From Nitrospirota bacterium (GTDB lineage Bacteria; Nitrospirota; Thermodesulfovibrionia; Thermodesulfovibrionales; UBA6898), in the NCBI GenBank assembly GCA_021811105.1, contig JAJZPM010000030.1, forward strand, positions 1 to 42,935: 42,935 bases of DNA. Direction: 5' to 3'. Position numbers and translations under genes: made by a program. Every line of letters starts with the position of its first letter. The stretch's first letter is position 1. The notes beneath the pieces are model-generated. The model had not been told where the DNA came from. It was given only the letters and a program-made list of their open reading frames with translations, and searched no databases. This document shows, one piece after another, positions 33,646 through 36,491 of this stretch.

Positions 33646-34041
33646 AGGGGGCATCTGGGTTAGTTGGCAGGGCTTTGGCATTATTTTAGAACTATTTGAG
33701 AACGAAAAAAGAAAAGGGATTTGAAGGCGTTATAGAGCTTATTGAAACTCACGAGCGTCTAGACATTGGTACAACAGAACTTGATTAGCCGCTTGAGGAG
33801 AAAGGTGTTCGAAATGCTGTAACGCTCAATAACGTCTCTATACATGATGAGATCGATATATTCCTGAAGGGCCTTCATTTTTGGGCAACTCACCAGGAGC
33901 CGCACAAGAGCATCTATAGGCTCTATAGGCTCTTACGCAACGAAGGCAAGTCTTTAAATGGGGATCATTTGGGAGGGTCTCGCCTTCATGGGTATGATAG
34001 CAGATTGTTCATCTGACATGTTGAAGGGCGGATAATAATTC
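33646..34041. other. Gap with an interrupted reading frame
   Basis: Non-coding except for one long plus-strand frame (33702-34016) interrupted by a single TAG. No promoter or terminator is visible here; the promoter at 34042 starts directly after. The repeated GGCTCTATAGGCTC near 33920 is a local tandem duplication. Confidence 0.4.
33702..34016 (+). pseudogene. Unrecognised gene fragment with an internal TAG
   Basis: One plus-strand frame reads TKKEKGFEGVIELIETHERLD, IGTTELD, a TAG stop, PLEEKGVRNAVTLNNVSIHDE, IDIFLKGLHFWATHQEPHKS, then IYRLYRLLRNEGKSLNG and a stop at 34014. The start is not found and no domain is recognised. 105 codons with one stop suggest a pseudogene fragment. Confidence 0.35.
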
Positions 34042-34070
34042 TTGACATCCCACCAGAATAGGACTATAAA
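34042..34070 (+). promoter_or_regulatory. Sigma-70-type promoter for the structured RNA / ferredoxin leader
   Basis: TTGACA (34042-34047), exactly 17 bases, then TATAAA (34065-34070). Five of six bases of the -10 and all of the -35 match consensus, the best promoter in the window. Predicted start near 34077. Confidence 0.75.
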
Positions 34071-34077
34071 TTAATTG

Positions 34078-34222
34078 AAGACAGGCAGACGAAAGTGGTG
34101 GTTTTGCTCTTCTTACACCAGCACAGGTTAGGACTGAAAGCCTGAGAGGAACAGAATTCAGGCAAAGTGTCATAAGATGTTCAAACCGCTGGAACAAGGA
34201 GAAGCAAACACCACTTTTTTTT
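34078..34222 (+). ncRNA. Candidate structured RNA ending in an intrinsic terminator
   Basis: The predicted transcript forms a rod. Outer helix: 34092-34114 pairs with 34196-34217 (base AAAGTGGTG with CACCACTTT, then TTTGCT with one bulge, one wobble pair). A 3x3 loop follows, then CCAGC (34118-34122) with GCTGG (34188-34192), an internal bubble of about 15 and 24 nt, and an apical stem GCCTGA (34140-34145) with TCAGGC (34158-34163). Eight T residues follow the helix base (34215-34222), so the outer helix acts as a terminator. It is either a free ~145-nt small RNA (6S-like in general outline only) or a terminating leader regulating the ferredoxin, which begins 51 bp later. Confidence 0.55.
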
Positions 34223-34273
34223 CCCCTGTCCTCCTGGATCAAATGGAAATATTATTTGGGAAGGTGAAAGCAG

Positions 34274-34468
34274 ATGTTTATAGCCTTAGTGGATTGGGAC
34301 AAATGCACTGGGTGTGGGGACTGCATAAACGCCTGTCCAGTCAAGTGTTTTGAAATGTCAGACGGTAAGAGCTTGCCTTCCCGCTCTTCCTATTGCATCA
34401 ACTGTGGCACTTGCAAAGAGGTCTGTCCAGCCGATGCCATAATTATTAGCATCGGGTGGGGTGGCTAA
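34274..34468 (+). CDS. 2[4Fe-4S] ferredoxin
   Basis: 64 residues with two CxxCxxCxxxCP motifs: CTGCGDCINACP (about residues 11-22) and CINCGTCKEVCP (about 41-52), followed by ADAIIISIGWGG. Between them lies a basic turn (KCFEMSDGKSLPSRSSY). Such small ferredoxins carry two low-potential clusters and donate electrons to anaerobic oxidoreductases. AAGGTGA is ~6 nt before the ATG. The immediate upstream structured RNA and terminator suggest it may be regulated by transcription read-through. Confidence 0.93.
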   Translation: MFIALVDWDKCTGCGDCINACPVKCFEMSDGKSLPSRSSYCINCGTCKEVCPADAIIISIGWGG

Positions 34469-34590: not shown

Positions 34591-34618
34591 GTCGTCATTT
34601 GTCATGATATATGACGAC
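34591..34618. promoter_or_regulatory. Palindrome over the AAA/DUF4143 start
   Basis: GTCGTCAT (34591-34598) and ATGACGAC (34611-34618) are a perfect 8-bp inverted repeat, and the second arm contains the start codon. A TTGACA box lies at 34579-34584 with a weak CATGAT 17 bp later, overlapped by the palindrome. It could be an autoregulatory operator, or an mRNA hairpin hiding the start codon. No ribosome-binding site is seen. Confidence 0.45.
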
Positions 34619-35780
34619 TATGGCGGCAAAACATACTTCTGAGCCTCGCTGGATTTCTCGATCTGTTGACCTTCCCAGTCTACTTGAGAAGCGGGCACAT
34701 TTTTTGCTAGGGCCGCGGCAGACGGGTAAGACGTCTCTAATCAGGCATACATTAAAGGAAGCTCGCACTTATGATCTTCTTGACACATCCGTCTATCTTG
34801 CCCTCAGTCAAAATCCCGGTCGCATTGCACAGGAACTAGGGCCTCGGGACCGTATTGTAGTCATTGACGAGGTTCAGCGGATCCCGGAACTTCTGAACGA
34901 GGTCCACCGGCTCATCGAAACCAAGGGCGTAAGGTTTCTCCTGACGGGGTCCAGCGCCAGGAAACTAAGGCGCGGTGGTGTCAACCTGCTCGGCGGGCGT
35001 GCCCGTACCAAATACCTGCATCCCCTCACATACAAAGAGCTCGGCGGCGTATTCAATCTCAGCTCCGCGATCGAACGCGGTTTGTTGCCTTCCATCTATT
35101 TCTCGGACGATCCGCAGGAGGACCTGAAGGCTTACGCAGGCCTCTATCTGCAACAGGAGATCGTAGCTGAGGGGGCGACACGCAACGTGCCCGCCTTCAG
35201 CCGCTTTCTCAAGGTCGCGGCGCTTTGTAACGGAACCATTGTAAACTTTACAAACGTCTCGAATGACGCGCAGGTTGCGCGGACGACCGTGTATGAGTAT
35301 TTCGACATCCTAAAAGACACCCTGGTGCTCTATGAACTGCCGCCATGGAGAAAAACGACCAGGCGCAAACCCCTCGCTTCGTCAAAATACTACTTCTTTG
35401 ACGTGGGCGTTGTCTCTGTGCTCCAGGGAAGGAGGTTCCGTGCCGGCACCCCCGAGTTTGGAGAAGCCTTTGAGACCTACATCATGCATGAACTCAAAAG
35501 CTACAGCGATTACGTATCAGGCGAACCACTGAGCTTCTGGCGGTCGACATCGGGATTTGAGGTTGATTTTATCATCGGGGATCACACGGCAGTGGAAATC
35601 AAGGCAAAAGACAACGTATCCATACAGGATCTCAAGTCCCTGCGCGCCCTGGCGGAGGAAAAGAAACTGAAACACTACCTGTGCGTGAGCCTTGAGATTC
35701 GCCCCAGAAAAGTCGAGGGCATATTGATTCTGCCCTGGCGGGAGTTCCTCGAGAGGCTCTGGAGCGGTGAGTTCCGCTAA
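34611..35780 (+). CDS. AAA-type ATPase with DUF4143 C-terminal domain
   Basis: 389 residues. Walker A GPRQTGKTSL (residues 34-43) and Walker B IVVIDEVQR (about 82-90) belong to the AAA_14 ATPase; LLTGSSARKL is sensor 1. The C-terminal ~180 residues (FETYIMHELKSYSDYVSGEPLSFWRSTSGFEVDFIIGDHTAVEIKAK) are DUF4143, a nuclease-like fold with D/E...E-x-K residues. Such proteins are common orphan genes in genomic islands and are suspected of toxin or defence roles, not proven. ATG 34611 overlaps a palindrome; ATG 34620 is an alternative. Located immediately before the tRNA cluster. Confidence 0.88.
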   Translation: MTTMAAKHTSEPRWISRSVDLPSLLEKRAHFLLGPRQTGKTSLIRHTLKEARTYDLLDTSVYLALSQNPGRIAQELGPRDRIVVIDEVQRIPELLNEVHRLIETKGVRFLLTGSSARKLRRGGVNLLGGRARTKYLHPLTYKELGGVFNLSSAIERGLLPSIYFSDDPQEDLKAYAGLYLQQEIVAEGATRNVPAFSRFLKVAALCNGTIVNFTNVSNDAQVARTTVYEYFDILKDTLVLYELPPWRKTTRRKPLASSKYYFFDVGVVSVLQGRRFRAGTPEFGEAFETYIMHELKSYSDYVSGEPLSFWRSTSGFEVDFIIGDHTAVEIKAKDNVSIQDLKSLRALAEEKKLKHYLCVSLEIRPRKVEGILILPWREFLERLWSGEFR

Positions 35781-35996: not shown

Positions 35997-36072
<76 letters not shown>

Positions 36073-36203
36073 ATGAAAGACAGAAATCAGTGAAAAGTGA
36101 ACAGTGAATAGTTAAACAAAATTCACTGCATTAAATCAACCGTTTTTAGCGGTCCACCTGAACAAAACGACAATCGTCGCTGCTTTCCCGCCGCAAATAA
36201 GGG

Positions 36204-36279
36204 TGGCGCGCCAGAGAGGAGTCGAACCTCCGACACCCAGCTCCGGAGGCTGGTGCTCTATCCACTGAGCTACTGGCGC
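36204..36279 (-). tRNA. tRNA-Arg (anticodon CCG)
   Basis: Minus strand: acceptor GCGCCAG, D-arm GCTCAGTGGATAGAGC, anticodon stem CCAGC/GCTGG with loop CTCCGGA (anticodon CCG), T-loop TTCGACT, 3' CTGGCGC-G-CCA. CCA encoded. Confidence 0.95.
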
Positions 36280-36414
36280 ACAAAAAGAGTTCTAAGTTCA
36301 AAGTTATCAGGTTAAAACCTAAAAACAAGACCGGTAAACCTGACTTGCTTCCGACCCAAGTCCCGCTCTTGACTCTCCGACTCACAACTCAACATTTACC
36401 AAGCAAATTTTTGT

Positions 36415-36491
36415 TGGGGTGGGCGAGGGGATTCGAACCCCCAACACCTGGAGCCACAGTCCAGTGCTCTAACCGTTGAACTACGCCCACC
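36415..36491 (-). tRNA. tRNA-His (anticodon GTG)
   Basis: Minus strand: acceptor GTGGGCG with encoded G-1 opposite C73, anticodon stem CTGGA/TCCAG, loop CTGTGGC (anticodon GTG), T-loop TTCGAAT, encoded CCA. The extra G at -1 is the His identity element. Confidence 0.95.

Follow-up and report, generated by a model that had tools for sequence, protein, structure and literature searches.

An uncatalogued, multicopy family of structured RNA genes in one order of Nitrospirota

Introduction

Multicopy small RNA families, among them Yfr2, LhrC and Qrr, are known in bacteria. To our knowledge, neither a rod built from repeat units nor linkage with 6S RNA has been described for these three families. 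Tandem structured RNA genes are known from the Bacillus cereus group, where co-transcription of tandem 6S genes has been shown in Bacillus thuringiensis (PMC7726162). The bacteria considered here form a group related to sulfate reducers like Ca. Sulfobium; our literature search found no small-RNA work on this group, and nothing relevant on small RNAs in Thermodesulfovibrio or Nitrospirae.

We analyzed a candidate structured RNA in a Nitrospirota genome (assembly GCA_021811105.1), located on contig JAJZPM010000030.1, whose positions 1 to 42,935 we call the window. The gene belongs to an uncatalogued, multicopy and well-conserved RNA gene family of one Nitrospirota order, which is absent from Rfam.

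Structure of the transcription unit

The unit lies on the plus strand and opens with a -35 box, TTGACA (34042..34047), and a -10 box, TATAAA (34065..34070), separated by a 17-bp spacer. This confirms the near-consensus promoter of the original prediction, and neither strand of the 42.9-kb window has another TTGACA-N17-TATAAN site. Judging from promoter spacing, the transcript would start near 34077 with an unpaired leader of about 14 nt (34077..34090), continue into a rod-shaped structured RNA (34091..34218), and end at a T8 tract (34215..34222) that would serve as an intrinsic terminator with the rod as its hairpin. The predicted product, from about 34077 through the T8 tract, is about 140-146 nt, in agreement with the length of ~145 nt and the T8 terminator first proposed. 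The proposed lack of an ORF also held: inside the RNA, the sense strand has no ORF of at least 60 aa. A hidden peptide was rejected on the same finding, and a possible small ORF starting at 34177, inspected by eye, is frame-shifted by indels in relatives. On the minus strand, a 77-aa ORF starting with TTG (34009-34242) overlaps the RNA and is without support.

The predicted fold of 34077-34222 has an energy of -48.3 kcal/mol, compared with -32.1 +/- 3.9 for shuffled sequences (z = -4.2); with the promoter included (34042-34222), z is -3.5. The window copy folds into a single unbranched rod interrupted by two bulges, one of 2 nt (GU) and one of 1 nt (A), and by small internal loops. Its outer stem pairs a 5' arm, GAAAGTGGTG-GT-TTTTGCTCTTCT (34091..34114), which is near-invariant in the family, with a 3' arm, AGGAGAAGCAAACACCAC (34197..34214), and both irregularities of this stem, bulged GU in the 5' arm and bulged A in the 3' arm, are kept. 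The proposed rod is thus confirmed, but a large interior bubble is not: in the window copy and in main-group copies, the predicted folds contain only short bulges and loops, with no large single-stranded central bubble. Fold energy alone is indecisive, with 57 of 1428 window pieces of the same length folding at least as strongly. Because the fold energy is not exceptional within the window, the case for an RNA rests on comparison.

Extent and conservation of the family

Searching 101 genomes at the DNA level recovered a second copy in the same genome, at 76% identity, and others in related genera. We aligned 30 copies and built a covariance model, R1, from 20 of the more alike; R1 matched 40 of the 176 genomes of the order, in 23 of its 85 genera. 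A second model, R2, built from 53 copies, was run on a phylum-wide sample of 396 genomes and matched 32, every one of them in the window's own order, with no copies outside it in this sample. The window copy is matched at 34091-34219, with 65.5 bits by R1 and 69.9 bits by R2. By R2, its genome holds six copies: the window copy (contig C15), two on C35, and one each on C41, C63 and C90. The E-values given by these models are approximate; most of the genomes were assembled from metagenomes, and contigs end at some of the copies.

When named-species genomes were scanned with a DNA pattern, 21 stretches were returned, and every source record bore the name Nitrospirae, Nitrospiraceae or Thermodesulfovibrionales. 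One is from strain Ngb-4, which appears to be the strain spelled Nbg-4 in the paper on Ca. Sulfobium (PMC5812927), a link between the two spellings that we infer. An Rfam scan of the RNA found no matching family. A pattern scan applied to viral contigs gave zero matches, and we rejected a phage element on this result.

The comparative alignment suggested in the original prediction, which would have given up the RNA if relatives showed no homologous pairing, instead revealed compensatory changes. Across the 53-copy alignment (A4), 89.3% of cells are paired, 34 of 49 pairs show two-sided changes, and 154 cells carry compensatory changes, compared with 55.5 +/- 6.2 in shuffled and 29-52 in slid controls; this alignment was fitted to the structure of the model, so that the covariation figures lean towards it. 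Covariation in the outer stem is also visible by eye. The closing A-U pair beside GUGGUG/CACCAC becomes G-C in several copies, and in one copy (L127) GGUGGUG/CACCACC becomes GGUAGUG/CACUACC. Paired columns have a mean conservation of 1.34 bits and unpaired columns 0.96 bits, with the outer stem near 2 bits; no invariant single-stranded stretch or seed was seen across the family.

The signals flanking the rod are also conserved. Among the 72 copies with enough upstream sequence, TTGACA is exact in 67 and the spacer is 17 bp in 65, and the predicted leader is 12-16 nt long in most; U-tracts occur family-wide. The genes around the copies differ, placing the family at dispersed, unrelated sites. 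The RNA shares its strand with the upstream gene in 44 of 66 cases and with the downstream gene in 33 of 74 (p = 0.42). The family displays the traits of intrinsically terminated free small RNAs, namely a promoter of its own, a stable and covarying fold, a U-tract and the absence of an ORF, and it lacks the conserved same-strand downstream gene of a cis-acting leader or attenuator.

What the copies have in common is the promoter, the outer stem and the terminator, and within the outer stem their interiors differ strongly. Many contain 14-15-nt units, GTCNYARGAYGTAA (GUCNYARGAYGUAA), often three to six in tandem and at most six. The mean count per copy is 2.1, compared with 0.11 after shuffling, and the spacing is mostly 14-15. 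An array-bearing copy folds as a regular rod of short steps (z -7.9), while others (L036, L105 and L106) fold with branches. The window copy retains one clear unit, GTCATAAGATGTTC (34169..34182), and one doubtful one. Given the variable interiors, the branching of some copies and the loss of all but one or two recognizable units from the window copy, the family members may differ in function.

Among the copies L123, L125, L105, L050, L045 and L126-L135 are two divergent subfamilies with other conserved interiors (a GAGACGCUAC-UGUCUC hairpin; GUCGUGAGAUGAUUAGUCUCA).

Interpretation and alternative explanations

We interpret the window RNA as a free, trans-acting structured small RNA that probably binds protein, and we put this reading, which draws expression, trans action, binding and read-through alike from sequence, at about an even chance. 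The gene would be transcribed from its own sigma70-type promoter and terminated at its own rod-plus-U tract, as one of the six members that this lineage-specific family has in its genome. The product would most likely act in trans as a protein-binding rod. It would comprise the near-invariant irregular outer stem, joined in many copies by the periodic 14-15-nt array folding back on itself, presenting several like sites per RNA. At seven loci, described below, the rod forms the front half of a rod-6S pair and has a seemingly weakened terminator, and one promoter would make both RNAs.

The choice between protein binding and base pairing is a narrow one. A base-pairing role is possible because Hfq is encoded in the window's genome; of 31 genomes searched for Hfq, 26 have it. 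In this reading, mRNAs might pair with the 5' leader or with an internal bulge with the help of Hfq, the copies being paralogues with partly different targets. Such multicopy small RNAs are known in other bacteria, and the U-rich 3' end, a conserved purine run, AAGRA, at the predicted start and an AGAAA bulge are consistent with this role. However, the RNA is almost wholly double-stranded, and its unpaired positions are the less conserved ones. With an outer stem near 2 bits and paired columns more conserved than unpaired ones, a recognized helix fits better than a single-stranded seed. We thus favor the protein-binding rod, though not by much, and consider Hfq-assisted base pairing possible but rather unlikely.

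A second set of explanations arises from the linkage with 6S RNA. At seven loci in three genera, the rod lies just upstream of a 6S gene. In six of them the 6S RNA was detected by cmscan, always below the gathering score (29.9-38.7 vs 46.4 bits), and in the seventh, in genome G014, it was recognized from sequence. The U-tract of these seven rods consists of four or five T and then A (4-6 T in nine bases), whereas stand-alone copies mostly have 7-8 T (Mann-Whitney p = 2.8e-6, for a contrast that was noticed first and tested afterwards), which suggests read-through of the terminator. We could imagine a new class of repeat-rod RNAs serving as partners of 6S RNA, sharing a promoter by read-through at some loci and using their arrays of similar folded sites to titrate or modulate a protein that acts in transcription or binds RNA, but we regard this as improbable.

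We identified three 6S candidates in the window's genome: a canonical one at C45:135932-136114 (L038:2433-2615; 73.5 bits), and two divergent ones below the Rfam family threshold at C90:174021-174189 (L034:2522-2690) and C42:4685-4838 (L037:2386-2539). The C90 candidate begins directly behind a copy of the rod RNA.

The seven pairs, the rod shape and the precedent of tandem co-transcribed 6S genes in the Bacillus cereus group (PMC7726162) speak for another reading, in which the RNA itself regulates RNA polymerase or is a degenerate 6S copy, retained next to a true 6S RNA as a tandem. The comparison with 6S RNA argues against this. There is no RF00013 match at E <= 10 in 33950-34300, R2 scores the canonical 6S region of the window's genome at 5.6 bits, which is noise level, and the large central bubble is missing. 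Moreover, most copies are not beside a 6S gene, and nearly every genome has a separate one. We therefore rejected membership in the 6S family, and with it the 6S-like outline initially suggested for this RNA, whose genome has three 6S candidates apart from it; a role as polymerase regulator or degenerate 6S copy seems to us, on these sequence comparisons, quite improbable.

The original prediction had left a choice between a free small RNA and a terminator-controlled leader of the adjacent 2[4Fe-4S] ferredoxin gene (34274..34468, plus strand). The former is borne out by the promoter and terminator kept in about 72 copies, the compensatory changes and the dispersed, unrelated neighbors. A leader could be argued from the shared strand, the gap of only 51 bases after the T8 tract, and the copy that lies upstream of the orthologous ferredoxin gene in one more species of the genus (G003), but there a 6S gene with its own T8 intervenes, giving the order rod, 6S, ferredoxin. 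Seven close ferredoxin orthologues were found, including the window's own, and the five in other genera (89-92%) have no rod within the 3.2-kb loci searched. Since the rod is present in G003, of the same genus, and not beside the five orthologues from other genera, the pairing is, as far as gene order indicates, genus-level synteny. Together with the random strand of downstream genes family-wide, this makes a leader very unlikely, and we judge the ferredoxin gene to be a neighbor and not part of the unit.

Further downstream, a 389-aa plus-strand ORF with a P-loop (34611-35780) begins 142 bases after the ferredoxin gene and, by eye, probably encodes an AAA-type ATPase of the DUF4143 group. Three tRNA genes lie in a row on the minus strand at 36000-36490.

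Several dispersed copies per genome at unrelated sites could also be the mark of a dispersed repeat or mobile element that carries a promoter and terminator by chance, yet the copies are old and divergent and have nonetheless kept compensatory pairs, and viral contigs are without a match, leaving this explanation with very little probability.

We give the least credence of all to a sponge titrating CsrA in the manner of CsrB or RsmZ, an idea that is attractive given the likeness of units such as UCAGGAUGU to CsrB repeats (many read CAGGAUG or UAGGACG, and [CT]AGGA[CT]G occurs 47 times vs 1.4 expected) but that we rejected because GGA overall is not enriched (134 vs 119, z 1.8; ANGGA is depleted, z -3.6), half of the units read AAGAYG, several copies have no GGA in their interior, and CsrA, barring a homologue that escaped recognition, is missing from the window's genome and family, which contains none of the 77 CsrA-bearing genomes and is where the RNA is most abundant. 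CsrA itself is absent from this whole family of genomes and present in many other families of the order.

Comparison with known systems

For a protein-binding rod, the rod-6S pairs and the variable number of repeats provide direct, testable handles on what the RNA binds. Like CsrB/CsrC and RsmX/Y/Z, it is a free RNA with tandem short units, many of them with AGGAYG; unlike in those RNAs, half of the units are without GGA, the units fold together into a closed rod, and the host family is without CsrA. With Yfr2, LhrC and Qrr it shares the presence of several paralogous, stand-alone small RNAs per genome in a restricted lineage, but the Rfam scan indicated no relation to them.

6S RNA (SsrS, RF00013) is likewise a rod-like free RNA, and seven copies of the new rod lie directly upstream of a 6S gene. 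The new RNA matches it neither in sequence nor by covariance model and has a length of ~145 nt. It also lacks the large central bubble, occurs in as many as six copies in a genome, and has a conserved outer stem that 6S does not resemble. A parallel to the rod-6S pairs comes from the Bacillus cereus group, whose 6S-1/6S-2 operon (PMC7726162) also places two structured RNAs in tandem, probably under one promoter; in the Nitrospirota pairs, however, the first RNA is not a 6S RNA and mostly occurs without one.
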